Below are positions 13,790-45,157 of a DNA stretch of 55,213 nt, piece by piece. Under the pieces are notes generated by a model, which saw only the letters and a list, made by a program, of their open reading frames with translations, was not told the DNA's origin and searched no databases. Both the position numbers and the translations under genes were made by a program. This DNA is from Ruminococcus sp. Its GTDB lineage: Bacteria > Bacillota > Clostridia > Oscillospirales > Ruminococcaceae. Every line of letters begins with the position of its first letter. Position 1 is the stretch's first letter. The stretch covers positions 1 through 55,213 of the forward strand of contig JAFUXL010000018.1 in NCBI GenBank assembly GCA_017470905.1. The letters are read 5' to 3'.

Positions 13790-13885
13790 AAAGGGGGCTT
13801 GGGGGATAAGCCGCCCCTTGCGCTGAGAGTGAACGGAGCGTAGCGCAGTGAACGAAAGCGCAAGGGGCGGCGTTCCCCCATTCCC
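13790..13885 (+). repeat. Long hairpin repeat, family 1, copy 1 (upstream of leuA)
   Basis: Perfect 15-bp arms GCCGCCCCTTGCGCT (13810-13824) and AGCGCAAGGGGCGGC (13857-13871) enclose a 32-base loop containing two GTGAACG motifs. Outer arms GGGGGA and TTCCCCC extend the stem. It ends 17 bases before the leuA start and leaves the ribosome site free. Confidence 0.85.
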
Positions 13886-13901
13886 GAATGGAGGATTTTT
13901 T

Positions 13902-15569
13902 ATGAAGAATATCGAAAAGTACAAAAGACAGTTTTTCGAAGCACCAAAAACAGCTATGAAATGGGCTGAAAAGTCATACATAGACAAGGCTCCCCTCTGG
14001 TGCAGTGTCGATTTGAGAGACGGCAATCAGGCACTTATCACACCGATGAGTCTTGACGAGAAGCTTGAATTTTTCAGGGAACTCGTCAGAATAGGCTTCA
14101 AGGAGATAGAGATAGGCTTTCCCGCCGCCTCTGAAACGGAATATGATTTTTGCCGCATACTTATTGAACATGACATGATACCCGATGATGTGACAATACA
14201 GGTACTCACGCAGTCGAGGGAACATATAATCGAAAAGACCTTTGAGGCACTAAGGGGCTGCAAGAATGCAATAGTACATCTCTACAATTCGACATCTCTT
14301 GCGCAGAGGGAGCAGGTTTTCCGCAAAAACAGGGAGGAAATCAAGGAAATTGCCGTATACGGCGCAAGGCTTTGCAAGGAATACCGTGAAAAATACGAAG
14401 GAAATTTCAGATTTGAATACTCTCCCGAAAGCTTCACGGGAACAGAACCCGAATACGCACTCGAAGTCTGCAATGCCGTACTCGATGTATGGCAGCCGAC
14501 AGAAAACGATAAGGTAATAATCAATCTCCCCGTTACGGTACAGCTTTCAATGCCCCATGTATATGCCAATCAGGTTGAATATATATGCGATAATATAAAA
14601 TACAGGGAGAATGTGATAATATCGCTCCATCCGCACAATGACAGGGGCTGTGCGGTTGCCGATACTGAAATGGGACTTCTTGCGGGAGCAGACAGGGTTG
14701 AGGGAACTCTTTTCGGAAACGGCGAAAGAACGGGAAATGTTGATATTATAACCCTTGCCATGAATATGTATTCCCAGGGAGTTGACCCCTGTCTTGATTT
14801 CAGTGACATACCTGCCGTAACGGAAATATACACAAAGCTCACGGGAATGAATGTCAGTGAAAGACAGCCCTATTCGGGAAAGCTTGTCTTTGCGGCATTC
14901 AGCGGTTCACATCAGGATGCTATCGCAAAGGGCATGAAATGGAGAGAAGAGGGTCACAGCGAACACTGGACAGTGCCTTATCTTCCGCTTGATCCCGAAG
15001 ATGTCGGCAGGGAATATTCTGCGGACGTAATAAGGATAAACAGTCAGTCGGGCAAGGGCGGCATAGGCTATATACTCGAAACGAGATACGGCTATAATCT
15101 CCCGAAGAAAATGTGTGAAAGTCTAGGCTACAAGGTCAAGAGCATTTCCGACCACCAGCACAAGGAACTCATGCCCGATGAAGTATATAATATATTCAGG
15201 GAAAACTATGTCGATATAATCAGCCCGATAAATATAATCGAAACGCATTTCGTGCAGAAAAACGGCATACAGGCGATAGTCAGCTTTGAATACAACGGCA
15301 GGAATGTGACAGCCTCCGACACGGGAAACGGCCGTCTTGATGCGGTAAGCAATGCGCTGCGTTCGTATACGGGGGCGGACTATAATATCAATACATATTC
15401 CGAACACGCACTCGAAGTCGGTTCAGCCTCCAAAGCCGTGTCCTATGTGGAGATAACATCTTCTGACGGACAGAGCTTCTGGGGTACGGGAATAGACAAT
15501 GATATTATAACCTCCTCCGTCAAGGCACTTGTAAGTGCGGTCAATAATATGATTAATATGGGAGCATAA
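13902..15569 (+). CDS. leuA: 2-isopropylmalate synthase
   Basis: First committed step of leucine synthesis: acetyl-CoA plus 2-ketoisovalerate to 2-isopropylmalate. The 555-residue product has the HMGL-like TIM barrel (CSVDLRDGNQAL at ~30-41, metal ligands in HPHNDRG at ~246-252, FGNGERTGNVD) and a C-terminal regulatory domain (~420-555) that in the family binds leucine. Length and the DLRDGNQALITPM motif fit the long type related to yeast and actinobacterial enzymes. ATG 13902 has SD GGAGG; the longer frame from 13848 would begin inside the repeat hairpin. It is controlled by the leucine T-box leader upstream. ilvB follows after 220 bases with its own promoter. Confidence 0.96.
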   Translation: MKNIEKYKRQFFEAPKTAMKWAEKSYIDKAPLWCSVDLRDGNQALITPMSLDEKLEFFRELVRIGFKEIEIGFPAASETEYDFCRILIEHDMIPDDVTIQVLTQSREHIIEKTFEALRGCKNAIVHLYNSTSLAQREQVFRKNREEIKEIAVYGARLCKEYREKYEGNFRFEYSPESFTGTEPEYALEVCNAVLDVWQPTENDKVIINLPVTVQLSMPHVYANQVEYICDNIKYRENVIISLHPHNDRGCAVADTEMGLLAGADRVEGTLFGNGERTGNVDIITLAMNMYSQGVDPCLDFSDIPAVTEIYTKLTGMNVSERQPYSGKLVFAAFSGSHQDAIAKGMKWREEGHSEHWTVPYLPLDPEDVGREYSADVIRINSQSGKGGIGYILETRYGYNLPKKMCESLGYKVKSISDHQHKELMPDEVYNIFRENYVDIISPINIIETHFVQKNGIQAIVSFEYNGRNVTASDTGNGRLDAVSNALRSYTGADYNINTYSEHALEVGSASKAVSYVEITSSDGQSFWGTGIDNDIITSSVKALVSAVNNMINMGA

Positions 15570-15581
15570 AATTAATTTCTT

Positions 15582-15608
15582 TATCTCTCCGCCGCAGGCG
15601 GAGAGATA
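15582..15608 (+). repeat. GC palindrome, family 3, after leuA
   Basis: TATCTCTCCGCC and GGCGGAGAGATA form a perfect 12-bp stem with a GCA loop. No U-run follows, so termination is doubtful; it may protect or process the mRNA 3' end. Confidence 0.7.
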
Positions 15609-15690
15609 CGCAAATCTCCATATTTTTCTTACTCGGACGGATAAATTAAGAAAAAATATAAAAATTTCTGTGCATTATGAAAAAATACCC

Positions 15691-15729
15691 CTTTACAGTA
15701 TTGATTTTGAGCGTGTAAAGTGTTATAAT
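15691..15729 (+). promoter_or_regulatory. ilvB: ilvB promoter with overlapping inverted repeat
   Basis: TTGATT (15701-15706) and TATAAT (15724-15729), spacing 17. CTTTACA (15691-15697) and TGTAAAG (15714-15720) form an inverted repeat around the -35 box, a possible operator. Confidence 0.7.
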
Positions 15730-15789
15730 AGAATAAATCGGGAACAGTTCTTTCTGTTTCTCACAAATAAATAAGAAGGAAAATTTGAT

Positions 15790-17529
15790 ATGAAAATTTC
15801 AGGAGCAAAAATTGTCGTTGAAACCCTGATAGAACAGGGCTGCGATACAGTATTCGGCTATCCGGGCGGACAGGTTATAAACCTCTTTGACGAGCTTTAT
15901 CTGAGCCGTGACAGAATAAAACACGTCCTCACCGCACACGAACAGGGTGCATCCCATGCCGCCGACGGCTACGCAAGAGCCACGGGAAAAGTCGGTGTGG
16001 TTATCGCCACTTCGGGTCCGGGGGCTACAAATCTCGTAACGGGAATTGCCACGGCACATCTCGACTCCGTTCCTATGGTTGCGATAACGGGAAACGTTCC
16101 GTGCAGCCTTATCGGACGTGACAGCTTTCAGGAGGTTGACATAGTAGGCATAACAATGCCCATAACAAAGCATAATTTCATCGTAAAGGACATACGTGAG
16201 CTTGCGGACGTACTGCGGACTGCCTTCAAGATAGCAAAATCGGGCAGACCGGGTCCTGTACTTGTCGATATTCCGAAAGATGTACAGACGGCTGTATGGG
16301 ACTTTGAGCCGAAGCCCGACCCCGTAAGACCATATCCCCTCAGATTTGCCTCGGAGGGAAAACTCAAAAAAGCCGCAGAAATGATTAACAATGCCGAAAG
16401 ACCATATATATATTTCGGCGGAGGAATTATAACGGGCAAGGCATCGAAGGAACTCATCGCCCTTTCGGAAAAGGCGGATATGCCTATGGGCTGTTCGCTC
16501 ATGGGACTTTCGGCAATACCCTCAAATCACCCGAATTTCCTCGGCATGAACGGTATGCACGGTCATTATGCATCGTCAGTCGTACAGGACGAGGCTGACC
16601 TTGTTATAGCACTCGGCGCACGTTTTTCCGACAGAGCCACGGGAAAGAAAGAGAGATTTAACAAGAATTTCAGAATAATACATATCGACATAGACAGTGC
16701 GGAGCTGAATAAAAATATAAATTCTGACCTCGCAATAGAGGGAGATATAAAGGACGCTCTTTTCAGGCTCATCTCAATGATAAACGAGAGAAAACGCCCC
16801 GAATGGCAGGAGAGAATAAATGCCCTCCGCACCGAGGAGCAGTCGAGACTTGAAAGCGCACTCAAATCCGCATATGAGAAAAACTGCACAAACTGCGTGA
16901 ATAAATGCGGCATGACGGGTATCTCCGCCGGGGAAAGACTTGACCCGTATGCAATCATTGATATAATAAGCTCTCATGCATCGGAGGACGATATAATTGT
17001 CACCGATGTCGGACAGCACCAGATGTGGACGGCGCAGAGGTATCCGTTCAGAAAGCCGAGAACCTTTCTCACAAGCGGCGGACTGGGAACTATGGGCTAT
17101 GGCATGGGTGCGGCAGTCGGTGCGTGCGAGGCTTCGGGCAGACAGACAATATTATTTACGGGTGACGGCAGCTTCGGAATGAATTTAAATGAGCTTGCAA
17201 CATCTGTAACTCAGAATATCCCCCTGATAATCGTAATAATGAACAACGGCGTACTTGGAATGGTAAGACAGTGGCAGACATTATTTTTCGACAAGCATTA
17301 TTCAAACACCACCCTGAACAGAAAAACCGATTTTGTAAAGCTTGCGGAGGCTTTCGGTGCGCAGGGAAAGAGGGTCTGTACCCGTGAGGAGCTTGAAAAT
17401 GCCGCAGACGAGGCTTTTTCATGCGGCGGAACGTATATAATCGACTGCGCTGTTGACTGCGATGAATTTGTACTCCCCATGCTTCCGCCGGGCGGTTCAA
17501 TCGAAGATATAATAACGGAAATCAAGTGA
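15790..17529 (+). CDS. ilvB: Acetolactate synthase, large catalytic subunit
   Basis: TPP-dependent condensation of two pyruvates, or pyruvate with 2-ketobutyrate, in valine/leucine and isoleucine synthesis. The 579-residue product shows the catalytic Glu in AHEQGASHAADGYAR (Glu51), SGPGATN, the FAD region FLGMNGMHG and the TPP/Mg motif GDGSFGMN followed by NN (~457-486), all at the expected spacing. Full length compared with the family. SD AAGGA precedes ATG 15790. ilvN follows after 10 bases. Its own promoter separates it from T-box control of leuA. Confidence 0.96.
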   Translation: MKISGAKIVVETLIEQGCDTVFGYPGGQVINLFDELYLSRDRIKHVLTAHEQGASHAADGYARATGKVGVVIATSGPGATNLVTGIATAHLDSVPMVAITGNVPCSLIGRDSFQEVDIVGITMPITKHNFIVKDIRELADVLRTAFKIAKSGRPGPVLVDIPKDVQTAVWDFEPKPDPVRPYPLRFASEGKLKKAAEMINNAERPYIYFGGGIITGKASKELIALSEKADMPMGCSLMGLSAIPSNHPNFLGMNGMHGHYASSVVQDEADLVIALGARFSDRATGKKERFNKNFRIIHIDIDSAELNKNINSDLAIEGDIKDALFRLISMINERKRPEWQERINALRTEEQSRLESALKSAYEKNCTNCVNKCGMTGISAGERLDPYAIIDIISSHASEDDIIVTDVGQHQMWTAQRYPFRKPRTFLTSGGLGTMGYGMGAAVGACEASGRQTILFTGDGSFGMNLNELATSVTQNIPLIIVIMNNGVLGMVRQWQTLFFDKHYSNTTLNRKTDFVKLAEAFGAQGKRVCTREELENAADEAFSCGGTYIIDCAVDCDEFVLPMLPPGGSIEDIITEIK

Positions 17530-17539
17530 GGTGAATGTC

Positions 17540-18037
17540 ATGAAACAGTATGTAATAGGCGTTATAGTTTCAAACGTAACGGGTGTGCTTTCAAGAGTTT
17601 CGGGAATGTTCACAAGACGGGGCTTCAACATAGACTGTCTCACGGTCGGCGAAACGGAGTCGGCAGGATTTTCGAGGATTACCGTTGCATTCCACGGAGA
17701 CGATGAAGTCAAGGAACGTATTCTCAAACAGCTTGAAAAACTCCATGATGTAAAGGAAGTGGAAATTCTCGACAAGCACGAAACCGTAATCCGTGAACTT
17801 CTTCTTCTCAAGGTGAGAAATTCCCCCTCGACAAGACAGGATATAATGGCAGCCGTTGAGATATTCCGTTCAAAGATAGTTGATTATTCAACAACGGCTC
17901 TTGTATGCGAGCTGACGGGAGAGACCTCAAAAATAGATGCATTTATCGAGCTTATGAAAACATACGGCATTATGGAGATGTGCCGCACGGGAATGGTAGC
18001 TATCGAACGAGGCGAAAACTGCCTCAAAACCAGGTAA
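17540..18037 (+). CDS. ilvN: Acetolactate synthase, small regulatory subunit
   Basis: The 165-residue protein has an N-terminal ACT domain (YVIGVIVSNVTGVLSRVSGMF, RGFNIDCLTVG) that in the family binds valine for feedback control of IlvB, and a C-terminal ALS_ss_C domain (~85-160, ending GIMEMCRTGMVAIERG). ATG 17540 has GAGGTG at correct distance, better than the GTG at 17531. It lies 10 bases after ilvB. An AT-rich repeat begins directly at its stop codon. Confidence 0.94.
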   Translation: MKQYVIGVIVSNVTGVLSRVSGMFTRRGFNIDCLTVGETESAGFSRITVAFHGDDEVKERILKQLEKLHDVKEVEILDKHETVIRELLLLKVRNSPSTRQDIMAAVEIFRSKIVDYSTTALVCELTGETSKIDAFIELMKTYGIMEMCRTGMVAIERGENCLKTR

Positions 18038-18172
18038 ATTCATAATTCACAATGCATAATTCATAATTATTATCTGTTGCGGCAGGTATGCTCCGTTCCT
18101 CACGCCGCAGGCGGGAGGAACAAATATAAAAATTTTTAATTCATAATTCTTAATTATGAATTGTGCATTGAA
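18036..18172 (+). repeat. Composite repeat: two AT-rich arms around a GC palindrome
   Basis: Left arm AATTCATAATTCACAATGCA (from 18037) and right arm (18137-18172, AATTATGAATTGTGCATTGA) are inverted relatives. Between them a GC palindrome at 18095-18121 has GTTCCTC / GAGGAAC and CGCC / GGCG around GCA. The left arm abuts the ilvN stop at 18035-18037. Confidence 0.65.
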
Positions 18173-18233
18173 TTTCCGCTTAATTCCGTTAATAACGGTT
18201 AAGATAATATTATTATTGACAAAGGAGAAATAA

Positions 18234-19271
<1,038 letters not shown>

Positions 19272-19281
19272 TAAATTGCGT

Positions 19282-19307
19282 TTTCCCGCCCTTTCACGGG
19301 CGGGGAA
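19282..19307 (+). terminator. Hairpin after ilvC, probable weak terminator
   Basis: TTTCCCGCCC pairs with GGGCGGGGAAA over a short loop. Downstream bases are AT-rich but lack a clean T-run. Confidence 0.5.
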
Positions 19308-19571
19308 ATATTATATAATAAATTTAATCAATACATAATTTGAATTATCGTTTTATAACTTAAAGTATATTTTCAGGCAGATTTCTTAAAACGGTATAGA
19401 AATTTCAATTACAATAAGTATAAAATTCGCAAATTATTAATAACTTGTTCATAATTTCTTCATATTATTGCAACATTTTCACAATGTTATCACAATAATT
19501 TATTAATATTTTATTAACGAAACGTTCATATTTCACAGCGTTCCGTAATATTAACGAAATGGGGAAATTTT
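19308..19571 (+). other. AT-rich gap with no gene
   Basis: Very AT-rich (many TTATTAA runs) with a loose inverted pair AACGAAACGTT / ACGGAACGCT region near 19518-19548. It may hold the promoter of the next gene, but no convincing -35/-10 pair was found. Confidence 0.4.
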
Positions 19572-20048
19572 ATGAAAGACAAGGGCTATTGGAAATTCAG
19601 GCTGTCGTTTTCGCAGATATTGGGAATTATTCTCATATTTGCAGGATTGTTCATGATATGGTATTTCGGAGTTGAGACAGCCGGCAGGAAAAAAATCTCC
19701 GATGAAAGCATAACCGATGAAGATATTCAGGAGTACATCGAAATGCAGGAGGATATAAACGCAAGACAGAACGAAACCCTCAGAATACCTATGGTGATAT
19801 TGGGCGGAGTATTTATTCTTGCGAGTGTACCGCTTTTCTATGCGCCATATGATGACAAGGGACTCAGGCTCCGTTGGAAAATCAGAAAGCACGAAAGACC
19901 CGAAGATGATAATGACGAAAATCTCAAAGACCCCGAATTTGATTATCCCGATGATGATTTTGATTTCATTATCCGCCGTGAGACATATGAACTCCTCCAC
20001 AAGCAGCAGCTTGAAAATATAAGAAACAAAAGAAAGAAAAACCGATAA
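19572..20048 (+). CDS. Two-TM membrane protein with acidic then basic cytoplasmic tail, unknown function
   Basis: The 158-residue protein has hydrophobic segments at ~14-33 (ILGIILIFAGLFMIWYFG) and ~74-92 (IPMVILGGVFILASVPLFY) with a short acidic connecting loop, then a tail rich in Asp/Glu (~105-135) and a Lys/Arg end (NKRKKNR). No family is recognised. It lies within the ilv gene run, between ilvC and ilvD, but has no obvious link to amino acid synthesis. SD GGGGAAA is modest at ATG 19572. Confidence 0.75.
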   Translation: MKDKGYWKFRLSFSQILGIILIFAGLFMIWYFGVETAGRKKISDESITDEDIQEYIEMQEDINARQNETLRIPMVILGGVFILASVPLFYAPYDDKGLRLRWKIRKHERPEDDNDENLKDPEFDYPDDDFDFIIRRETYELLHKQQLENIRNKRKKNR

Positions 20049-20056
20049 TAATCAGC

Positions 20057-20080
20057 ATTTCTCCGCCGCTGCGGAGAAAT
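20057..20080 (+). repeat. GC palindrome, family 3, before ilvD
   Basis: ATTTCTCCGC and GCGGAGAAAT, perfect 10-bp stem with a 4-base loop. Same type as the palindromes after leuA and before leuC and ridA. Confidence 0.65.
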
Positions 20081-20130
20081 ATAAAGAATAAATTAGAAAT
20101 ATAAAATAAATTGAATGAGTAGGTGTAAAA

Positions 20131-21798: not shown

Positions 21799-21832
21799 TT
21801 CATAATGCATAATTTTAATTCAGAATTATTTG
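21790..21832 (+). repeat. AT-rich palindromic repeat overlapping the ilvD stop
   Basis: AATTCATAATTCATAATGCA followed by TAATTTTAATTCAGAATTA. The ilvD stop codon lies inside it. Confidence 0.7.
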
Positions 21833-21851
21833 GTGAAGCTTGAATAAATTA

Positions 21852-21930
21852 AGAGGAAATTTTCGCACTTGTGCTGGGAGTGAACGAAGCGTAGCGCAGT
21901 GAACGAAAGCACAAGGTTTAAAGGGCGAAA
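21852..21930 (+). repeat. Long hairpin repeat, family 1, copy 2a
   Basis: TTGTGCT (21869-21875) and AGCACAA (21908-21914) enclose a 32-base loop with the two GTGAACG motifs. Outer arms AATTTTCGC and GCGAAAATT pair, and differ completely in sequence from the GC-rich outer arms of copy 1. Confidence 0.8.
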
Positions 21931-21950
21931 ATTGACGATTTTAGATAAGG

Positions 21951-22036
21951 AGGTTTGGGGGAAAGCAGCCGCTTGCGCTGAGAGTGAACGGAGCGCAGCG
22001 CAGTCAGGGCGCACAACGGCGGCGTTCCCCCCATTC
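21951..22036 (+). repeat. Long hairpin repeat, family 1, copy 2b (degenerate right arm)
   Basis: The left arm GCAGCCGCTTGCGCT and the first half of the loop are intact, but the loop diverges after GCGCAGCGCAGT and the right arm is partly broken, ending GGCGGCGTTCCCCCC. It abuts the start of the next gene. Confidence 0.7.
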
Positions 22037-22041
22037 TAAAT

Positions 22042-22560
22042 ATGAATAATATAAAAAAATTTATTGACGGTCTTGAAATTAATGATATTCCTTGGGGGAG
22101 AATGATTACCGCTTACGGCACGGCTGAAAATTATCCCGAATATCTTGAAATACTGGACAGTATGCAGAATATTGAAGAAATGGATAAGGCTCTTGACGGC
22201 TTATCGGAATTTGAACATCAGAGTACAATGTTTCCGCCTGCACCGTTTGCGCTTGTATTTCTTGCAAGAACTTATAGAAAGGCATTGAATACGGATACTC
22301 CCGAAGCCGAATGGCTTGTGAACGAGCTGAAAAATTCCTTTGATTATTATAATGAGGTGTGCGAAGATGCCGAAAGCATGGAACACGCAGAGCCTTTGCA
22401 GAATTTTCAGGATATGCTTGACAGGAAATATCTCCTCTCGGAAGAACCCGATGAAGAAGAACTCGAAGAAGTTTTTGAGAATTTTATTCCCGACGATTTG
22501 TTTTACAGCCTGTATTATTATTCGGGCATGATAATTTCGGATATACTGGGTAAAAATTAA
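22042..22560 (+). CDS. Acidic protein of unknown function
   Basis: The 172-residue, strongly acidic protein (many Glu/Asp, with EEPDEEELEEVFENF near the C-terminus) is predicted largely helical, with no signal peptide or membrane span. I recognise no family. ATG 22042 lies 5 bases after the hairpin repeat and shows no Shine-Dalgarno sequence, unlike almost every other gene here, so translation may be weak or initiated differently; no later start is obviously better. It sits between ilvD and leuC. Confidence 0.65.
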   Translation: MNNIKKFIDGLEINDIPWGRMITAYGTAENYPEYLEILDSMQNIEEMDKALDGLSEFEHQSTMFPPAPFALVFLARTYRKALNTDTPEAEWLVNELKNSFDYYNEVCEDAESMEHAEPLQNFQDMLDRKYLLSEEPDEEELEEVFENFIPDDLFYSLYYYSGMIISDILGKN

Positions 22561-31487: not shown

Positions 31488-31586
31488 TTCATAATTAAGA
31501 ATTTATTTGCCGTTGGCAAATCAGGTGTTTCTGTAATGCCAACGGCATTACCAATTATGAATTATGCATTATGAATTATGAATTAA
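31482..31586 (+). repeat. Composite AT-arm repeat, copy A (after hydE)
   Basis: Arms ATGCATAATTCATAATTAAG (31482-31501) and AATTATGAATTATGCATTAT (from 31555) surround a core with GCCGTTGGCA and TGCCAACGGC, a second inverted repeat. A near-identical ~90-base copy follows the next gene. Confidence 0.75.
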
Positions 31587-31606
31587 CTACAGGGAGTGTT
31601 TTTATT

Positions 31607-32545
31607 ATGAGAGTACGGTTTCATCTGCCCGATTTTTCGGGGAGATTTAAATTAAATCTTATGTTTGCGGAAATGCTGAAAAATAAACCCGAATTTTTCC
31701 GTGAGGGCGTTGAAATAGCATCGTTCTACGGCGTTTTTCCGCCGTCTATATGGAACGGCGGAAGAACTCAGGGCGGTGTCTGCGACAGAGTATTCATAAA
31801 ACAGGTTATAAAGGCTTTCAACGACAGGGGTATTCCGCTCAGGTTTACGTTTACAAATCCTGCTCTTGAAAAGAAACATCTTAACGATAATTTCTGCAAT
31901 ATGGTTATGAACCTTGCCAACAACGGCATGAATGAGGCGATTGTCATGTCGCCGCTGCTGGAGGATTATATAAGAAAAAATTATCCAAAATATAAGCTGA
32001 CAAGCTCAACGTGCAAGAGAATTACCGACCCCGAAAAGCTTGAAGAAGAGCTTGGAAAGGATTACAGCATTGTAGTTGTTGACTATGATTTCAACAATAA
32101 TTTTGAAGTCCTCGAAAAGCTTCCCAGAAAACAGGACTGCGAACTGCTGGTTAATGCCTGCTGTGAGCCGAACTGCCCCAGACGTTCGGCGCATTATTAT
32201 TCGATAGGGGAGCAGCAGATAGCCTATAACGAGCATATAAAGAAATATCCGAATGTTCCGTTTGATGTTGAAAAATATGACCCCCAGCATTTCAGGGACT
32301 GTCCTTATTCGCAGAGGGGAATTTTCGAGATAAGGAATTTGAGGACGCATATTTCGCCCGATGACATATGGGAAAAATATGTGCCTATGGGATTTGAACA
32401 GTTCAAGATTGAGGGAAGAACCGCAAGCCCTTTCAATATCCTTGAAACGTATATGTATTATATGGCGAAGCCCGAATGCCGTGACGAGGCGAGGTTTACA
32501 CTTCTGAAAGCCCTCGAAAACAGCAAAGCGATAGTATATAATTAA
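31607..32545 (+). CDS. U32-peptidase-like protein with candidate Fe-S cysteines, paralogue 1
   Basis: The 312-residue protein ends in a U32-family-like box, GFEQFKIEGR (residues 262-271); the F/K-IEGR motif is the hallmark of the U32 barrel. It also has Cys185, Cys186 and Cys190 in NACCEPNC and Cys232 in RDCPYS, recalling the four-Cys [4Fe-4S] site of U32 proteins such as UbiU/UbiV. U32 members act in ubiquinone, tRNA and rRNA hydroxylation or as collagenase-like proteins. The overall sequence is divergent, so this is tentative. ATG 31607 has GGGAGTG; a frame from 31571 would begin in the repeat. An adjacent paralogue starts 205 bases downstream. Confidence 0.55.
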   Translation: MRVRFHLPDFSGRFKLNLMFAEMLKNKPEFFREGVEIASFYGVFPPSIWNGGRTQGGVCDRVFIKQVIKAFNDRGIPLRFTFTNPALEKKHLNDNFCNMVMNLANNGMNEAIVMSPLLEDYIRKNYPKYKLTSSTCKRITDPEKLEEELGKDYSIVVVDYDFNNNFEVLEKLPRKQDCELLVNACCEPNCPRRSAHYYSIGEQQIAYNEHIKKYPNVPFDVEKYDPQHFRDCPYSQRGIFEIRNLRTHISPDDIWEKYVPMGFEQFKIEGRTASPFNILETYMYYMAKPECRDEARFTLLKALENSKAIVYN

Positions 32546-32633: not shown

Positions 32634-32733
32634 AAGGGGGCTTGGGGGAAAGCTGCCTCTTGACCTGAAAGCGAACGGAGCGCAGCGTAGTGAACGAAAG
32701 GTCAAGGCTTAGATGGCAGCTCCCCCATTTCAA
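32634..32733 (+). repeat. Long hairpin repeat, family 1, copy 3
   Basis: TTGACCT (32660-32666) and AGGTCAA (32699-32705) enclose a 32-base loop with GCGAACG and GTGAACG. Outer arms GGGGGA..AGCTGCC and GGCAGCTCCCCC pair. It ends 18 bases before the next start codon. Confidence 0.85.
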
Positions 32734-32750
32734 ATAAGGAGTGTTTTATT

Positions 32751-33701
32751 ATGAGAGTTAGGTTTCATCTTCCCGATTTTGCAGTACATTATAAATTTAA
32801 TCTTGTATTCGCCGAAATGCTTAAAAATTGTCCGCAGTATTTCCGTGATGGAGTTGAGATAGCCTCGGTATACGGTGCGTTTCCCCCGTCATTATGGAAC
32901 GGCGGACGCTTTCAGAGCGGTGTATGCAGTGAGGATTTCATAAAGCAGGTTATATATTCTTTCAATTCGAGGGGTATTCCCCTGCGCTTTACTTTCACAA
33001 ATCCCATGATTGAAGAGGAGCATTTAAGCGATGAATACTGCAATATGATAATGAAATTAGCGGACAACGGTCTGAATGAGGTTATAATCATGTCGCCGCT
33101 GCTCGAAAATTATATCCGTGAAAATTATCCTAAATATAAGCTTACAAGCTCAACGTGCAGGAGAATTACCGACCCCGGAAGGCTTTATGATGAAGTGAAC
33201 AAGGATTATCACATAGTAGTGATAGATTATGATTTGAATAACAGATTTGACATTCTCGAAAAAATCCCCGACAAGGAAAAATGCGAAATACTTGTCAATG
33301 CCTGCTGTAATCCTGCCTGTTCCCACAGAAGTCATCACTATCGGACGATAGGTCAGGAACAGATAATATATGCACAGCACGTTAAAAATCACCCGAACAC
33401 TGATTTCAGCTTTCAGGAATTTTTCGATAGTCACCCCGAAAGCGATTATGAGAGAAACTGCAATTGTATGCAGAGGACGGTATTCGAGATAAAAAATCTC
33501 AGCACGCATATCCCGCCCGATGATATATGGGAAAAATATGTGCCTATGGGCTTTTGTCAGTTTAAGATTGAGGGGCGTTCCTTTGATTTGTTTAATTTAA
33601 TGGAGCATTATATGTACTATATGATAAAACCCGAAGTCCGTGACGAGGCAAGATTTATTCTTACGAGACAGCTCGTCAGAAACAACATCATACGAATTTA
33701 A
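32751..33701 (+). CDS. U32-peptidase-like protein with candidate Fe-S cysteines, paralogue 2
   Basis: The 316-residue tandem paralogue of the preceding gene matches it clearly along the whole length (MRVRFHLPDF, NGG, LTSSTCRRITDPG, NACCNPAC, DDIWEKYVPMGF, QFKIEGR). The NACC..C cysteines are conserved. The fourth lies in ERNCNCMQ, with an extra Cys. Conservation of cysteines after this much divergence argues that they are functional. ATG 32751 has AAGGAG. Function unknown; both genes follow nadA and hydE, which also encode Fe-S enzymes, but no direct link is shown. Confidence 0.55.
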   Translation: MRVRFHLPDFAVHYKFNLVFAEMLKNCPQYFRDGVEIASVYGAFPPSLWNGGRFQSGVCSEDFIKQVIYSFNSRGIPLRFTFTNPMIEEEHLSDEYCNMIMKLADNGLNEVIIMSPLLENYIRENYPKYKLTSSTCRRITDPGRLYDEVNKDYHIVVIDYDLNNRFDILEKIPDKEKCEILVNACCNPACSHRSHHYRTIGQEQIIYAQHVKNHPNTDFSFQEFFDSHPESDYERNCNCMQRTVFEIKNLSTHIPPDDIWEKYVPMGFCQFKIEGRSFDLFNLMEHYMYYMIKPEVRDEARFILTRQLVRNNIIRI

Positions 33702-36413: not shown

Positions 36414-36421
36414 TAATTATT

Positions 36422-36459
36422 AAAAAAGACGGTTCTTTCGTGAGCCGCCTTTTTTATTT
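36422..36459 (+). terminator. Rho-independent terminator
   Basis: AAAAAGACGGTTC and GAGCCGCCTTTTTT form a stem with a 5-base loop and a T-run. Confidence 0.85.
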
Positions 36460-36563
36460 ACAAAAATTTAATAAAGACAAGATTAAAATAATTATATAAT
36501 TAAATTCCGATTAATACTGCGCTTTTTTATTTAGTCTATTTATTTTAAAAATGCCGCAAATAC

Positions 36564-36592
36564 TTGACAAATCAGGAATTTTTTGATATAAT
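36564..36592 (+). promoter_or_regulatory. Promoter of the PL11 lyase gene (TTGACA-17-TATAAT)
   Basis: Consensus hexamers at 36564-36569 and 36587-36592 with 17-base spacing. The leader is about 65 bases. Confidence 0.85.
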
Positions 36593-36664
36593 GTTACTTA
36601 CTATAAAGAATTACACAAATAGGCAGTGTATTTAGTTAATTTATTTTATCAAGGAGGAATTTCT

Positions 36665-39600: not shown

Positions 39601-40093
39601 CACAGGCAACGGCGGCGCAGAAATGGTCGGCTCACACAACGGCGTTGTATATTCCGCAACAGGCGACCATGAAAAGGTCTGCGACTGGTCTAATATCACC
39701 AAATGGGGACAGAACTCCGTTGTATACTGGACGGACGTTCTCGAAAGGGCAGTCCTCGACAGAACTATGGCTGACCAGTACGGCAAGGGCAGAGTATTCA
39801 CGGGCGACGGTGTCGGATATAACAACGCATCCAAGTCGAATGCCTGCATAACCTGTGACCTCATGGGCGACTGGAGAGAGGAAATGCTCTTCCCGTGCGG
39901 AACGGACAAGATAAGAGTATTCACGACAACATACACCACGGATTATAATATTTATTCGCTCATGCACAATCCTCAGTACAGAGTACAGGTTGCATCGCAG
40001 AACAACGGCTATAACCAGCCTCCGCATACCGACTACTATCTCGACACAACGGAATACACAAGACCCGAAGAACCCGATGTATGGACTAATTAA
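36665..40093 (+). CDS. Rhamnogalacturonan lyase (PL11) with N-terminal dockerin and two CBM35-like domains
   Basis: Cleaves the rhamnogalacturonan I backbone of pectin outside the cell. The 1142-residue product has a signal peptide (~1-34), a type I dockerin (~42-101, with GDVVGDDGITGVD and the canonical calcium loop DANADGKVSISD), a beta domain (~125-220), a Thr-rich linker (~222-255), two CBM35-like domains (~258-381 and ~397-521, both with YYAADA or FYAADA starts and GGPN.DYI ends) and a PL11 propeller (~536-1140; GDVDGDGQYELFVKWDP, DFDGDGKAEM, CMGADVDQDGKDE, CDLMGDWREE). The dockerin targets it to a cellulosome cohesin. Its N-terminal position is unusual. ATG 36665 has AAGGAGG. Confidence 0.93.
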   Translation: MKKNRKAPKALSLALSAALSLSLLPFVPVLTSDARTSDEYFLRGDVVGDDGITGVDAAAIQEYDAKARQLDDKQMLAADANADGKVSISDAVAILQWLVMYNYNSGTTGEYVPLSQEEYPDNDFSGNSSRYIETDIAGTYKLRIKYTNSTGADAEITVRTDEGYTTVTCPPTDGNEGELDIVIPVETAGTHSFSFESENAQVSTAKIIRTANLSDDFTKERTPIETKPQEQETTAAATTTAAPETTVVTTAPEVKNNNRYYAADAVIFEGVVENTNEGFEGAKGYANVDNKVGSSVEFTVDVAEDGNYKIDFRFANGTAASRPMQIVLNGSDDLYYVDFAGTGAWTTWDNEAVVLPLKAGKNTIKAVSTTETGGPNIDYIDVSKTGEKPIEPVKTMRFYAADAEYHKGWEETSNTGFEGKAYVNYDNSIGGYVEWTFEAPQDGNYEVDFRYANGTDVNRPIKLITNGDRTHGQYVDFKGTDAWTTWGDTKAVVSLKKGTNTLKAYATTNAGGPNMDYIEITQTGQSAPNAKATHGRQVEKLNRGVVMAHAKNGNLVSWRLLATDDENTTFDLWRIRDTGNVKLGTFTMDDASNYFDAEGTATDTYTVDVSVNGVSTEFAQASTNFTNTNSGVSGAYFDIQLKQPAGLTMPDGTTCTYSPNDCSVGDVDGDGQYELFVKWDPSNSQDNSKNGYTGNVYIDCYRLDGTMLWRVDLGKNIRAGAHYTQFMVYDFDGDGKAEMICKTADGTVDGTGKVVGDGSKDYRSDAGRILTGPEYLTLFDGATGKALDTVNYKPGRGNVGDWGDTYGNRVDRFTACVAYLDGKNAYACFGRGYYTRMAVTAYGVSGGKLKEYWAWDTGHNVSALGYGDGNHHCMGADVDQDGKDEVVCGSVIIDDNGQVLNTTSLAHGDAIHIGDFDPKNPGLEIFQCLEDDTHPNGTVVKCGVILRDAATAKVLFREQAIGADGKGVDTGRCLADNLITGNGGAEMVGSHNGVVYSATGDHEKVCDWSNITKWGQNSVVYWTDVLERAVLDRTMADQYGKGRVFTGDGVGYNNASKSNACITCDLMGDWREEMLFPCGTDKIRVFTTTYTTDYNIYSLMHNPQYRVQVASQNNGYNQPPHTDYYLDTTEYTRPEEPDVWTN

Positions 40094-40104
40094 ATCATAA
40101 ATAA

Positions 40105-40137
40105 AAAACTTCCCCGCCAATTATGGCGGGGATTTTG
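40105..40137 (+). terminator. Shared bidirectional terminator between convergent genes
   Basis: AAACTTCCCCGCC and GGCGGGGATTTT around AATTAT. It sits between the lyase (+) and the SCP gene (-) and can serve both. Confidence 0.8.
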
Positions 40138-40155
40138 CGTAATGTACAAAGCATT

Positions 40156-40181
40156 TTAATTATGCATTATGAATTAATTAA
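40156..40181 (+). repeat. AT-rich palindromic repeat overlapping the stop of the minus-strand SCP gene
   Basis: TTAATTATGCATTATGAATT and AATTAA; the SCP stop (40178-40180 on the minus strand) is at its edge. Confidence 0.65.
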
Positions 40182-40960
40182 AAGAGTTTTACGGGGAGAG
40201 ACATACTGCTGTTCAGTATGTATTTCTGAAGTATGACGGCATCTGCGAGGGTAATAGTACCGTCCTGGAGACAGTCCGCACTTTCAAGCTGCAAATCGTT
40301 CAGATAAACGCTGTCGCTGTCGTCCGTGAGATACTGCATAAGCAGGATATAATCAAACATATCCACTGCATCATCGCCGTTCAAATCTCCGCAGCATTTC
40401 GGAACAATCTTGTATCTTTCGGGGATATACTGTCCGTCGAAAGGAGTTTCCTTTGCGCTTTCGATAAAGAGCTGCTGCCAGTACCAGCCGTAGGTGCTGT
40501 TCTGCTCATATGTAACGGCTGCGCCCATGTGAGTTACATCGGGGTTCATAATAGCCGCCCAGTGCTTGGGGGAATTTTTCCACTGCTCGAAAGTATCCTC
40601 GGGAGTTGAAAGCCCTGCGGCAATATTTTCGGCAGCGTACCAGAAAGGAGCGATATTCTGGTCGATAACGGTAGAGAATTTGGTTCCGTCAGGTCTTTTG
40701 TGGTTCCAGAAATCTATAAGCTCCCTTACTCTTATATGTGCGAGGTCGTTGAGATAGGGAACAGCATAGACGGGCTTAAGACCTGCATCCGTTCTTGCCT
40801 CGTTTACGAGAATGATTATTTTTTCCGCATACTCATTGAAATCAACATCCTCCGCCTCCGCATTCATTGGTCTGAACGAAAAGCCTGCGCCTAAAACAAG
40901 CATTACGAGAGCCGTCACAGCAGCGGTAAATCTTTTTAAACACGGTTTTTGGTCACTCAT
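40178..40960 (-). CDS. Secreted SCP/CAP-domain protein with C-terminal dockerin
   Basis: The 260-residue protein has a signal peptide (~1-35, ending AEA), a CAP/SCP domain (~42-170: LVNEARTDAGLKPV, LAHIRVREL, WYAAENIAAGLSTPEDTFEQWKNSPKH with the conserved Glu and His, and MGAAVTY) and a type I dockerin (~190-255: CGDLNGDDAVDMFDYILLMQYL and a second repeat DCLQDGTITLADAVILQKYIL). Bacterial CAP proteins have unclear enzymatic roles. A dockerin means that it is displayed on a cellulosome or scaffoldin, perhaps in binding or host/biofilm interaction. It is the only clear minus-strand gene in the window. Reverse-strand AGGAGGTG precedes its ATG. Confidence 0.92.
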   Translation of the reverse strand: MSDQKPCLKRFTAAVTALVMLVLGAGFSFRPMNAEAEDVDFNEYAEKIIILVNEARTDAGLKPVYAVPYLNDLAHIRVRELIDFWNHKRPDGTKFSTVIDQNIAPFWYAAENIAAGLSTPEDTFEQWKNSPKHWAAIMNPDVTHMGAAVTYEQNSTYGWYWQQLFIESAKETPFDGQYIPERYKIVPKCCGDLNGDDAVDMFDYILLMQYLTDDSDSVYLNDLQLESADCLQDGTITLADAVILQKYILNSSMSLPVKLF

Positions 40961-41408
40961 AAAAACACCTCCTTTTCAGATATAGTTCAATCTCCGTTGC
41001 CCTTATACCTTTATATCTTCTTTATTATTATTCTACCACAGAAAAAATTTTTTTAAAAGGGATTATTCATATTTTTGTTAATTTTATACAAACAAAATCT
41101 ACTTTTTGTACAAAATAAAGAAATACAAAGCGTTATTATTTCTGTTCCTTATACTCTGCGGACGGGAATATAGCGTGTGATAAGGCATTTTCCGCAAAAA
41201 CCGGCGAATTTTGTCTTTTACCGAAAGTATATTGCACTGTTTTGTATACATTACGATATTTCACACAGATTTCACAAAAAAATTCAGAAATATTAAGAAA
41301 AATAAAATTTCTTTAAGATTATTTTAAGACAGCAGGATTATAATAACATCAGAAAATCACGAAAGGAGTGTGAATCCGATACGGCTCTCTCCCGTATTCG
41401 GAGAATAT
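40961..41408. promoter_or_regulatory. Divergent intergenic region with Pho-box-like repeats and a -10 box
   Basis: AT-rich, no gene seen. TTTCACA occurs at 41259-41265 and again at 41270-41276, exactly 11 bases apart, and TTAAGA at 41293, 41313 and 41324 (the last two 11 apart). TATAAT at 41339-41344 is a likely -10 for the VTC operon without a good -35, which fits an activator-dependent promoter. The 11-base period is that of PhoB/PhoP boxes. Confidence 0.4.
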
Positions 41409-42197
41409 ATGGCAATTAATACTTTTGCAAGAAAAGAAATAAAGTTCCTCCTCAACATGGAACAGTATGAAAACCTCATGGAAACGCTTCAGGAGTACAT
41501 GAACCCCGATAAATACTGCGTAGGCGGCAAAGAGTACGGCATCTACAACATCTACTACGACACCCACGACGATTATCTCATAAGAGAGTCCCTCTCAAAG
41601 CCCTACTACAAGGAGAAAATCAGGCTCAGAAGCTACTACTCCCCCGCAGCTCCCGATGATACGGTTTTCCTCGAAATAAAGAAGAAAATTGGCGGTATCG
41701 TTACAAAAAGACGTGTTTCGATGACACTTGCGGAGTCGGACGAATACTTCGCAACAAGACACAAGCCCGAAACCAAGAAATACATCACGGAGCAGGTTTT
41801 CAAGGAACTCGATGTTTTCCTCGACAGCTATCCGATAGCCCCCAAGCAGTACATAAGCTACCAGAGAGAGGCTTTCTTCGGAAAGGACAACAAGGACTTC
41901 CGCCTTACATTCGACAGAAAGATAACCGAACGCCGCTTTGATTTGAGCCTCGACAAAGAGAGCTACGGCAATTATATAATCGGCGAGAACCAGAGACTTA
42001 TGGAAATAAAGGTCTCCGACTCAATGCCACAGTGGCTCGTTGAAAAGCTCTCCGAACTCAAAATCTACAAGACGAGCTTTTCAAAATACGGCAGGGCTTA
42101 TCAGAACTTTGTGTACGAACAGGCTATGACATCGAGAAAAATTTATATCTCGGGCATATCAATGGTAAACAATCAGTTAATGAACAGGAGTGTGTAA
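41409..42197 (+). CDS. VTC-domain protein (polyphosphate polymerase-type)
   Basis: The 262-residue protein is essentially one VTC tunnel domain. The charged strands typical of the triphosphate-tunnel fold are visible: FARKEIKFLLN at the start, EKIRLRSYY, VFLEIKKKIGG, RLTFDRKI, RLMEIKV and KTSFSKYGRAY. In yeast VTC4 this domain makes polyphosphate from ATP; bacterial stand-alone versions often lie beside DUF4956 membrane proteins and CotH-like or DUF4353 proteins, as here. I choose ATG 41409 (GGAGA upstream), where the family's usual N-terminus begins, over GTG 41370, which is one base from its ribosome site. Confidence 0.88.
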   Translation: MAINTFARKEIKFLLNMEQYENLMETLQEYMNPDKYCVGGKEYGIYNIYYDTHDDYLIRESLSKPYYKEKIRLRSYYSPAAPDDTVFLEIKKKIGGIVTKRRVSMTLAESDEYFATRHKPETKKYITEQVFKELDVFLDSYPIAPKQYISYQREAFFGKDNKDFRLTFDRKITERRFDLSLDKESYGNYIIGENQRLMEIKVSDSMPQWLVEKLSELKIYKTSFSKYGRAYQNFVYEQAMTSRKIYISGISMVNNQLMNRSV

Positions 42198-42199
42198 TT

Positions 42200-42940
42200 A
42201 TGAGCGATTTTTTCAGCAGTTTATTGGTAGACAAGGGTGACGGTGAGGCAACTGATATTTTTGCCGATGCTCCGGCACAGACAGTATCCGTAGGTGTAGG
42301 CTCATTTATAATGTGTATCGTAGCCGCTCTTATAATAGGACTTCTCATCAGCTTTGTGTATATGCTCACGCATAAGAAAGAGGGCTATGCCCAAAGTTAT
42401 GTTGTGACAATGATAATGCTTCCGCCCGTCGTTGCACTCATGCTCCTGCTCATAAACAATACAGCAGGCGCACTCACAATAGCAGGTACATTTACACTCG
42501 TAAGGTTCAGAAGTGTCCCCGGAGACCCGAGGGATATGGCATACATATTCTTCTCGATGGCAGTCGGTGTTGCCTGCGGTCTCGGATATATAGGCTTTGC
42601 AATCGTATTCTTCGTAATAATCGCAGCCGCAATGATAATCCTCAATGCAGTTAATTTCGGCGCAGCAAAGAGCAGCCACATGACGCTCAAAATCGCTATC
42701 CCCGAAAACCTCGACTATCAGGGAGTATTTGAACCCGTACTCGATAAGTACACTACATTCCACAAGCTAAGAAGAGTTAAGACAACGAATTTCGGCACAC
42801 TCTTTGAACTTATCTACAGTGTTGACGTGAGCGACAATATCGACCAGAAGAAATTTATTGACGAACTCCGCACACTCAACGGAAATATGACAATCAATCT
42901 CGTATTTTTCAGATACGATGACAAGATTTACGAAAAATAA
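42200..42940 (+). CDS. DUF4956 membrane protein
   Basis: The 246-residue protein has four hydrophobic segments (~33-55, 67-85, 90-100 and 112-145), the conserved stretch FTLVRFRSVPGDPRDMAYIFFSMAVG split by the third and fourth segments, and a soluble C-terminal ACT-like domain (~150-246). This is the DUF4956 pattern; the family is strongly associated with VTC-domain genes and may export or anchor polyphosphate. It begins 2 bases after the VTC stop. Function inferred from association only. Confidence 0.88.
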   Translation: MSDFFSSLLVDKGDGEATDIFADAPAQTVSVGVGSFIMCIVAALIIGLLISFVYMLTHKKEGYAQSYVVTMIMLPPVVALMLLLINNTAGALTIAGTFTLVRFRSVPGDPRDMAYIFFSMAVGVACGLGYIGFAIVFFVIIAAAMIILNAVNFGAAKSSHMTLKIAIPENLDYQGVFEPVLDKYTTFHKLRRVKTTNFGTLFELIYSVDVSDNIDQKKFIDELRTLNGNMTINLVFFRYDDKIYEK

Positions 42941-42948
42941 TACCCCCG

Positions 42949-42984
42949 TGAAATTGTCAGACCTCTTCGGTCTGACTAATTTCA
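42949..42984 (+). other. Strong intercistronic hairpin
   Basis: TGAAATTGTCAGACC and GGTCTGACTAATTTCA form a near-perfect stem with one bulged base and a 5-base loop. No T-run follows, so it is more likely an mRNA stability or processing element than a terminator. Confidence 0.6.
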
Positions 42985-43006
42985 TATCGGCAGAAGGAGC
43001 GTTTAT

Positions 43007-44371
43007 ATGAAATACAGCAAAATTTTATCGGCGGCACTTATAGCCCTCTTGTGTTCCGTATCGTGCGGAAAGGAAGAAAGCATTACCGTTCAGGAAGTAC
43101 CCTCTTCAAGCTCACAGGTCAGCCGTGCAGAGGAAGAGCCGACAACGGAAGAATTTTCCGAAACATCAGAAACAACCGTTATAACATCTTCGCATGAGAC
43201 ACAGACTTCGGCAGGTACTCAGACCACGGTATCTTTGTCTGTTTCGGCAGTATCGTCAGTATCTTCAACTGCATTGTCATCAGTACCGGCGGTTTCTGCG
43301 ACAGTCACCTCATCGGCGGTTACGACTGTATCGGTAGATACTTCATCTTCAAATAGTGCAAATTCAAACAGTGCAAACAATTCGGACAATACGAATAATG
43401 CGGACAATAATTCCGATGCGTCACAAAATCAGCAGGAGCAGGAGACTGAACCAATTCAGGAAGAGTCACCGTATACCGCAGAGATAGAACTCGGCGGAGA
43501 TATAAAGGGCGAAAATGTAACTTCGGACGGCGACAGAGTGATTATCTCGGCAGGCGGCGACTATCTCATCACGGGCAGCCTTTCGGACGGTCAGGTATAT
43601 ATTGATGCACCCACGGAGGATAAAGTAAAGATAATTCTCGACAGTGTTGACATATCCTGTTCATACGGCCCTGCAATCCTCGTCAATGATGCTAAAAAAT
43701 GCACGATAGAGCTTGCGGACGGAAGCTATAATGTTCTGCATGACGGCGGAGAAGATAAGGTTAATGACGGAGTTATCTTCTCGAATGATACCCTTAAATT
43801 CAAGGGCGAGGGTACGCTGGAGGTAAATTCGGGAAATGCTCACGGTATTGCAAGCGATGACGATGTTGTAATAGAAAGCGGTACATATTATATAAATTCC
43901 GTTAAATCGGGAATATTTGCGCATGATGACATAAGCATAAACGGCGGAGAGCTTGAAATAAAGGGCGGTACGAACGGCATAAAATCCAAGGGAACTGTTA
44001 ATATCAACGGCGGAAAAACTGTTGCCTACGGCGGCACAAAGGAGGAGAAAAGTTCAGTTTATGCCGGCATTGCGCTGAATTACACGGGCGGAGAACTCTA
44101 TGCCGCAGGAAATAAGGTCACTGCACCTGCTGTTTCCGCAAATCCCTACATAGTGGCGGATTTTAAAAACGGCTTGTCCGCAGGAACGAACGTCAGCCTT
44201 TATCTTGACGGAAATGAAATATCCTCGCTTACACCGCACAACAATTTCAGATGCGTAATAATTCTTTCGTCCGACATTCAGACAGGCAGCAAATTTATTG
44301 CCAATGCTGACGGCAACGAAACGGAGGAATTTACTGTAAGCGATATACAGAATGTTTTCACAATAGAATAA
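43007..44371 (+). CDS. Lipoprotein with Ser/Thr linker and beta-helical DUF4353 (carbohydrate-binding) domain
   Basis: The 454-residue protein has a lipobox SVSC (Cys20), a long Ser/Thr/Val/Asn linker (~25-150) and a right-handed beta-helix-like DUF4353 domain (~155-454) with repeated GGDYLITGSL, NGGELEIKGGTNGIKSKGTVNINGGK and similar turns. DUF4353 proteins are extracytoplasmic and are often called carbohydrate-binding; they commonly accompany VTC/DUF4956/CotH genes. SD AAGGAGC, ATG 43007. Third gene of the VTC operon, closed by a strong terminator. Confidence 0.85.
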   Translation: MKYSKILSAALIALLCSVSCGKEESITVQEVPSSSSQVSRAEEEPTTEEFSETSETTVITSSHETQTSAGTQTTVSLSVSAVSSVSSTALSSVPAVSATVTSSAVTTVSVDTSSSNSANSNSANNSDNTNNADNNSDASQNQQEQETEPIQEESPYTAEIELGGDIKGENVTSDGDRVIISAGGDYLITGSLSDGQVYIDAPTEDKVKIILDSVDISCSYGPAILVNDAKKCTIELADGSYNVLHDGGEDKVNDGVIFSNDTLKFKGEGTLEVNSGNAHGIASDDDVVIESGTYYINSVKSGIFAHDDISINGGELEIKGGTNGIKSKGTVNINGGKTVAYGGTKEEKSSVYAGIALNYTGGELYAAGNKVTAPAVSANPYIVADFKNGLSAGTNVSLYLDGNEISSLTPHNNFRCVIILSSDIQTGSKFIANADGNETEEFTVSDIQNVFTIE

Positions 44372-44379
44372 AATTTTCA

Positions 44380-44430
44380 GCCGTCATTTTTTCGTATTTG
44401 TCTATGCGAATAAAATGACGGTTTTTTATT
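44380..44430 (+). terminator. Terminator of the VTC operon
   Basis: CCGTCATTTT and AAAATGACGG with additional TTCG / CGAA pairing inside, followed by TTTTTTA. Confidence 0.88.
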
Positions 44431-44608
44431 TAAAATTATAGTGTATATTGCCTTAAAAAATGGTTTATGATTAATATTAATTATTTATTAATATGTAATA
44501 TCAGAATACTTATTAATAAAAAATTAACTTGAATTTTTTGGAAAAAAGTGTAAAAAGTACATAATATTATAGTTTAGTGTACAATTACATATTGTAAAAG
44601 GAGAGATT

Positions 44609-44635
44609 ATGAAATATAATATATACAGCAATTGA
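44609..44635 (+). CDS. Possible 8-codon leader ORF with good ribosome site
   Basis: AAAGGAGAG precedes ATG 44609 by a normal distance, yet the frame stops after MKYNIYSN. An alternative frame from TTG 44632 gives a 63-residue hydrophobic-looking product with unusual composition. Either this is a decayed gene or a short leader peptide over a transcribed non-coding region. The strong ribosome site is the only solid evidence. Confidence 0.3.
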   Translation: MKYNIYSN

Positions 44636-44851
44636 AGAATACAGGTATTCATCACCTCGTACCCTCCCCTCTCATGTGCTTGGTGCTGTTTGTTTTTTCA
44701 AGTGCATTGGATAGAGAGATATTTGTTAATTTAAAAAGCAAATCCCTTTCATTTGTAATTTTTTCATGTTTTCTATTCTCAATAACTTATTTTAACTATT
44801 TAGACTGCGACCCTCAGTGCTAAACGGCTCTGCCGTATGGGTCAATATGTC

Positions 44852-44884
44852 TCGCTTCCCGAAAGGGAGGCGAATTTTTTTGTT
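44852..44884 (+). terminator. Rho-independent terminator of an unidentified transcript
   Basis: TCGCTTCCC-GAAA-GGGAGGCGA followed by seven Ts. It indicates that the region 44.6-44.85 kb is transcribed although no convincing gene is seen there. Just upstream, GACCC and GGGTC (about 44810-44850) also pair. Confidence 0.8.
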
Positions 44885-44918
44885 TTGTGAAATTTGCGTG
44901 AAAGTTTATATAATTCGC

Positions 44919-44947
44919 TTGACAAATTCAATAATGTGTGATATAAT
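44919..44947 (+). promoter_or_regulatory. Promoter of the ribbon-helix-helix gene (TTGACA-17-TATAAT)
   Basis: Consensus hexamers at 44919-44924 and 44942-44947, spacing 17. Two tandem hairpin repeats fill the 5' UTR, giving a leader of roughly 215 bases. Confidence 0.85.
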
Positions 44948-44966
44948 TCTAATCAGGAACTGAAAA

Positions 44967-45048
44967 AGGGGTTTGGGGGAAAAGCCACCCCTTGATCTGA
45001 TAGTGAACGAAAGGTCAAGGTTACAAAGGGGACGGCATTCCCCTATTC
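44967..45048 (+). repeat. Long hairpin repeat, family 1, copy 4 (short loop)
   Basis: TTGATCT (44992-44998) and AGGTCAA (45012-45018; one T-G pair) with a 13-base loop holding a single GTGAACG. The loop lacks 19 bases compared with other copies. Outer arms GGGGAAAAGCC / GGCATTCCCC pair. Confidence 0.8.
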
Positions 45049-45051
45049 AGG

Positions 45052-45157
45052 AAAGGGGGTTGGGGGAAAAGCTGCCCCCTTGACCTGATAGTGAACGAAA
45101 CGCAGTAAAGTGAACGAAAGGTCAAGGCTGCAAAGGGGGCGGCATTCCCCCATTCAG
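45052..45157 (+). repeat. Long hairpin repeat, family 1, copy 5 (tandem with copy 4)
   Basis: TTGACCT (45080-45086) and AGGTCAA (45119-45125) enclose a 32-base loop with two GTGAACG motifs. Outer arms GGGGGAAAAGCTGCCCCC and GGGGGCGGCATTCCCCC pair. Confidence 0.85.

Follow-up and report, generated by a model that had tools for sequence, protein, structure and literature searches.

REP and REPIN sequences, as far as the parts of two papers drawn on here describe them, are high-copy extragenic hairpins in which the structure is kept while the stem varies, and they are non-autonomous mobile DNA in single-stranded form; REPIN doublets are described there as randomly distributed in extragenic space (PMC3116915, PMC8266576). 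The pneumococcal BOX, RUP and SPRITE repeats are presented, in the passages of a third paper used here, as small interspersed repeats that are limited to a clade, have strong secondary structure and can be co-transcribed. Their neighbours have no single function, they are over-represented between convergent genes, and BOX and SPRITE have no certain mobilising enzyme (PMC3049150).

The hairpin repeat described here, of which no account was found in the open-access literature searched, is likewise a high-copy extragenic palindrome able to fold as single-stranded DNA (ssDNA). Like the pneumococcal repeats as portrayed in those passages, it is clade-limited and structured and may be co-transcribed, its neighbours are of mixed function, and searches for Y1_Tnp and RVT_1 found no mobilising enzyme for it. 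However, it is fixed at the Shine–Dalgarno (SD) sequence, in contrast to the random placement given for REPIN doublets in the parts cited, and it lies 5' of the SD in the sense direction with a spacing of 40-45 nt, not between convergent genes as the cited passages give for BOX, RUP and SPRITE. REP hairpins carry a conserved tetranucleotide, GTAG or GTGG, on their 5' side; no conserved GTAG-type motif was noticed by eye in the present repeat. It resembles MITEs in being short, non-coding and present in high copy, with inverted-repeat arms and presence/absence polymorphism between relatives. It differs from them in its asymmetric end, the pairing outer arms being followed on the right by a 13-nt tail, in having no clear target duplication (AAGAGG on the left, A(A)GGAG on the right), and in that no parental transposon was found.

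Copies in the window and in related genomes

Two types of the repeat are distinguished by their arms, which are AAATTTTCGC/GCGAAAATT in type A and TGGGGG/CCCCCA in type B. The window, that is, the whole stretch of 55,213 nucleotides that was analysed, holds six copies, all on the + strand, where an earlier note on this sequence had placed them. Copy 1 (13790..13883) has type B outer arms, a core at 13816-13865 and the inner stem TTGCGCT/AGCGCAA. It sits between the terminator of the leuA T-box leader (13456..13709, + strand; an Rfam match of 101.7 bits) and the SD at 13890-13894, which precedes the leuA ATG at 13902, and it is the best match of its family in the genome, at 78.5 bits. Copy 2a (21850..21946) is of type A, with a core at 21867-21916 and the inner stem TTGTGCT/AGCACAA; its tail GACGATTTTAGAT (21934-21946) runs into AAGGAGG (21947-21953), directly after which copy 2b (21954..22041) begins. 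Copy 2b is a degenerate type B element of 27.6 bits with a partial core at 21974-22013, and it extends up to the ATG at 22042 with no SD in between. Copy 3 (32634..32735; type B; core 32658-32707, inner stem TTGACCT/AGGTCAA) is followed by the SD AAGGAG (32736-32741) and an ATG at 32751. Copies 4a (44965..45049; core 44990-45020, TTGATCT/AGGTCAA; 31.6 bits) and 4b (45052..45156; core 45078-45127, TTGACCT/AGGTCAA) are both of type B and precede an ATG at 45170. A sigma-70-like promoter read from the sequence, TTGACA-17-TATAAT (44919..44947, + strand), lies about 18 nt upstream of copy 4a, and both copies would therefore be transcribed as a 5' leader.

The four start codons named in the earlier note hold, as do its compensated inner stems, including the single G-U pair in the core at 44990. 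The constant 32-nt loop that it described is present in the four cores that begin at 13816, 21867, 32658 and 45078, but the loop is shortened to 13 nt in 44990-45020, and the right half of 21974-22013 is degenerate. The copy listed at 21852 had been taken as the odd one out; it is instead the sole representative in the window of the commoner type A, the other five being of type B. When folded as DNA, four of the six copies beat all 200 dinucleotide shuffles, whereas the segments 21839-21936 and 44963-45051 were equalled by 2 and 10 of the 200 shuffles, respectively. The pattern GGAGCGTAGCGC with up to three mismatches was uninformative in the window (22 found against 24.24 expected).

Other repeats are also found in the window. 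One consists of 7-nt units (AATTCATAATTCATAATGCATAATT and its complement) and occurs at 13757, 18037, 21790, 31560, 32607, 35459 and 45835, in several cases just 5' of genes; another is an intergenic palindrome, CTCCGCCGCAGGCGGAG, at 15570, 22581 and 29029. The paralogous neighbours 31571-32545 and 32751-33701 are 75-80% alike in DNA over long stretches, with a type B element in the leader of the latter.

The six copies are a sample of a high-copy family in rumen Ruminococcus. The covariance model R1, built from 80 cores of the own genome (G000), has at least 148 matches (E up to 0.01; 150 candidates scored) in its 2.04 Mb, and AGTGAACGAAAG with at most one mismatch occurs 114 times there, against 16 for the reversed control. 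The copy numbers should be read as minima, because at most 150, 48 or 15 candidates per genome were scored in the own genome, the genus and the order, respectively. In at least 7 of the 32 own contigs, a copy lies no more than about 300 bases from an end, and the true number is therefore probably higher. With up to 48 candidates scored per genome, three of the 125 genomes from the genus gave R1 matches, namely the own genome, G041 and G077, and the other 122 were without the repeat. Under the stricter filters used for the order sample, with 15 candidates scored per genome, only the own genome among 394 gave a match, and the 393 others gave none. A scan of named genomes with one stringent form returned eight contigs, all from the Ruminococcus MAGs RGIG7051 (sheep rumen) and UBA4383, which correspond to G041 and G077. 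In an argH tree of 31 genomes, the three carriers form one clade with support of 100/97, and no repeat was found in its sister, G005. One contig filed as viral (L288, IMGVR_UViG_3300021431_000623) holds four cores at 3329-5041.

Anatomy and covariation of the hairpin

Stretches of the three carrier genomes gave 227 cores in 150 arrays, 184 with type A arms and 43 with type B arms, and the core has its standard length in 200 of the 227. A type A unit begins with (A)AGAGGAAA and an outer stem of variable but pairing sequence, followed by the inner stem TTGnnnT/AnnnCAA. In its loop, Watson-Crick steps of 2 bp alternate with G·A mismatches (GA/GA, GNA/GNA) up to a 3-nt tip, mostly GNA or ANA; the outer arm then closes the hairpin and the tail GACGATTTTAAAT ends the unit. 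Type B shares the core and a TTTTAAAT-like tail but not the arms. Units also stand in tandem, each spanning about 96 nt. The G16·A37 and A17·G36 mismatches are present in 80/80 own cores and in all 81 distinct cores of the relatives (G041 and G077), G20·A33 in 79/80 and 80/81, and A22·G31 in 73/80 and 81/81. GCGNAGC is known as a DNA mini-hairpin; a tip strictly of this kind was dropped, since the tip is G..A in only 56 of the 80 own and 48 of the 81 relatives' cores (A..A in 13 and 27, T..T in 10 and 2). Another loop family (TTGCCGTATGAACGAACGTAATG...) can, by eye, be read as having its steps in the same order. A small insert, TCCCCCAAGGGGACTTCCTTCGGGCGA, lies in or beside the outer stem of several elements (L067:3060; L073, - strand; L191:3310; L055, - strand).

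The stems covary strongly. In the own alignment A3, which leans towards paired stems because its cores were located by at least six paired bases with G·U allowed, and from which 2 of 82 distinct cores (one misplaced, one of 49 nt) were left out, pairing extends to 97.5% of cells; two-sided changes affect 133 cells, whereas shuffles gave 36.5 and sliding the alignment gave no more than 13. Consistently, 97.8% of cells pair in the relatives' 81 cores with four loop pairs added, and two-sided changes number 187 against 57.0 in shuffles. The added pairs, 14-39, 15-38, 18-35 and 19-34, are absent from the search model behind the relatives' alignment A4, and three of the four show two-sided changes there; in the own cores, 15-38 is weaker, with 66/80 paired and no two-sided change. 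The earlier note had proposed arms that covary around a conserved loop and had allowed that a larger alignment might lack covariation; the arms do covary, in the own genome and again in two others. Chance hairpins were rejected on the shuffle comparisons of folding and covariation.

Placement before ribosome-binding sites

The repeat is dispersed, restricted to one clade and placed next to the SD. Among the type A arrays that could be scored, 87 of 109 have an SD and a start codon 25-60 nt after the core on the sense strand, as the earlier note had suggested from the window, and 22 do not. The core ends a median of 42 nt before the start codon (5-95%, 40-45). Type B arrays, which are often placed elsewhere, have this arrangement in 20 of 37, with the same median, and random positions have it in 685 of 6000. 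Four arrays cut by contig ends were excluded from this count, and genes were called by simple scripts of our own, by which the next downstream gene is in the sense direction in 119 of 150 arrays. Of the alternative raised in the earlier note, a mobile repeat with random placement, the first part stands, in that the repeat is dispersed in high copy within one clade; its placement, however, is the opposite of random.

Filled and empty sites can be compared between relatives. The last 190 nt of 29 congener leuA leaders have the T-box terminator, a short spacer and the SD but no element, and the leuA leader of G041 has a type B element whose inner stem differs from the own one. No element is present in 28 congener argH leaders; in the own genome and G041, it lies directly 5' of the SD-spacer-ATG that the congeners also have. 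The clearest empty/filled pair, own L062 and G077 L190, shares the flank TATGAATTATAAAC, which is followed by AGGAGG in the empty form and by AAGAGG-element-AGGAGG in the filled form. SD-like sequence flanks the element on both sides, the left AAGAGG or AGAGG differing from the SD on the right. The left-side logo is AAGAGGAAA, with AAGAGGA in 50 of 102, and the right side is A(A)GGAG. The left hexamer may be carried by the element or may be a decayed copy of the target.

Among orthologues in the own genome and the fetched stretches of G041 and G077, the element is present in both at 16 loci, in the own genome only at 11, in the relative only at 8 and in neither at 123; in one locus set, the motif script located the start in part of the loci and those rows are not counted. 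Own counterparts exist for 10 of 33 G041 arrays and 7 of 23 G077 arrays, above a chance expectation of about 5% roughly estimated from 100/1850 genes. The carriers are only 56-57% identical at four-fold sites, and at free core positions shared sites have an identity of 0.398, where random pairs have 0.391. Shared positions thus persist past neutral divergence, which leaves two readings: selection keeps the structure in place, or the same leaders receive copies again by re-insertion or conversion. Such long persistence with the structure intact looks like kept function.

Mobile DNA or leader RNA

On balance, the repeat is probably a REP/MITE-like hairpin of mobile DNA, dispersed and non-autonomous, which homes in on ribosome-binding sites and joins mRNA leaders. 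Its folded sense strand, as ssDNA during replication or as an extruded hairpin, would be recognised by a putative mobilising protein; integron attC is also recognised by folded-strand structure. Insertion would be aimed at an A(A)GGAG-like sequence, which would fix both place and direction, and the mobilising protein may by now be lost from the carriers. Once inserted, the element would be transcribed in the leader, where it may stabilise the mRNA or shift translation, and regulation by the element is possible. A more specific proposal is tentative: that the machinery recognises the SD itself, in one direction genome-wide, that an enzyme outside both the HUH Y1 transposases and the reverse transcriptases reads the purine-rich, non-canonical sense-strand fold with its G·A steps, and that the repeat is a portable mRNA leader cassette.

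The profile searches for a mobilising enzyme covered the Y1_Tnp and RVT_1 families. Y1_Tnp (PF01797) has no match in G041 or G077, and the own genome has one truncated match (profile 69-121 of 121), an IS605-like relic; the repeat therefore differs from the REP/REPIN-RAYT system, as far as these incomplete genomes tell, and the result speaks against a RAYT/IS605 partner. The truncated fragment lies at L094 (G000:C28, about 8723), followed by a frame that is TnpB-like by eye. RVT_1 (PF00078) has no match in the own genome (73.75% complete), G041 (93%) or G077 (81%), and this likewise speaks against a reverse transcriptase partner; 7 of 17 other congeners searched have one.

A cis-acting leader RNA is the first alternative, in which the folded mRNA leader acts on stability, perhaps as a 5' stabiliser, or on translation, and dispersal is secondary. 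Like a T-box or another cis-regulatory leader RNA, the repeat lies between a promoter or terminator and the SD, and its sense placement, the G·A-rich loops, which are known RNA motifs, and the shared positions that outlast near-saturating neutral divergence with stems intact all agree with this. Of 109 type A arrays, 25 have a -35/-10 pair in the 90 nt upstream in sense and 7 in antisense; however, the -10 match alone is no commoner in sense (82 of 109) than in antisense (90 of 109). Rfam matched only the leuA T-box in the window and nothing over any element there or in six further loci, and this speaks against a known riboswitch or leader RNA, in agreement with the earlier note, which had recognised no regulatory RNA class.

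If sense RNA were under selection, G·U would be expected to far exceed A·C among imperfect pairs. The ratio of G·U to A·C is 19:18 in the element stems, whereas it is 229:8 in 30 leuA T-box leaders of the genus. At covarying pairs, G·U makes up 3/704 and 14/623 standard cells in the element against 34/574 in T-boxes. Because RNAalifold derived the T-box structure from the T-box alignment itself, which favours G·U over A·C, the contrast is somewhat overstated, but this bias is not likely to be large enough to explain it. Covarying helices are thus present in the element, but the G·U tolerance of an RNA is absent, which argues against ordinary RNA-level selection. The earlier note had left the choice between a folded RNA and an ssDNA hairpin; the RNA half is weakened by this result, and the ssDNA half fits better.

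Other observations also speak against a leader RNA. Of 52 downstream proteins listed, 20 were scanned, of which 12 pass the curated cut-off and 5 have no match at 1e-30; the scanned genes form a mixed set with no common theme (dnaK, lepA, pyrG, gltX, ftsY, argH, purF, hisD and others). The SD is hardly more accessible with the element, its unpaired probability in 82 type A leaders having a median of 0.56 against 0.50 with the element shuffled. Strong SD exposure was therefore not found, which gives only weak backing to the remark in the earlier note that the SD usually stays free. With the repeat also missing from most of the genus, leader RNA as the primary nature of the repeat is unlikely.

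The second alternative does without a dedicated enzyme. Replication would slip at the hairpin and switch templates between SD-like direct repeats, so that the palindrome is copied and corrected; tandem units, perfect Watson-Crick arms and spread would follow. Adjacent units are indeed 95-98 nt apart in 61 of 77 pairs, SD-like hexamers stand on both sides of the element, stem changes are two-sided with few intermediates, and the Y1_Tnp and RVT_1 searches gave no transposase or reverse transcriptase candidate. In three cases (L171:8818, L172:11433, L174:9299), a type A unit sits within a type B core, at the tip of its loop; in two of them, the type B core resumes on the other side. Against this, the G·A mismatches are near-invariant, although correction of the palindrome would be expected to remove them; a match of six bases gives little guidance to unlinked loci, and the restriction to one clade would still have to be explained. 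Slippage as the sole source of the repeat is quite unlikely. A SINE-like retroelement, spread by target-primed reverse transcription with its 3' end annealing at the SD, is very improbable: the 3' tail is retained in 181/181 type A and 40/42 type B cores while units with a lost 5' part exist, but deletion explains 5' loss equally well because the 3' side abuts the SD, the 5'-shortened copies have no left SD in the cases read, and RVT_1 is missing from the carriers though present in several congeners.

The common view is that small repeats in bacteria end up where they are least harmful. The present repeat, probably a mobile DNA hairpin, occupies the position at which a gene is most sensitive, immediately 5' of its ribosome-binding site, and does so at many loci, dnaK, lepA and pyrG among them. 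Because it sits mostly there, the leaders of many unrelated genes have been rewritten. Strong stem covariation alone is no proof of RNA function, because here the ratio of G·U to A·C points to DNA. The repeat is a natural experiment that can show how inserted structure is tolerated or put to use in mRNA leaders, and it can serve to test whether SD sequence is able to guide a transposition system.
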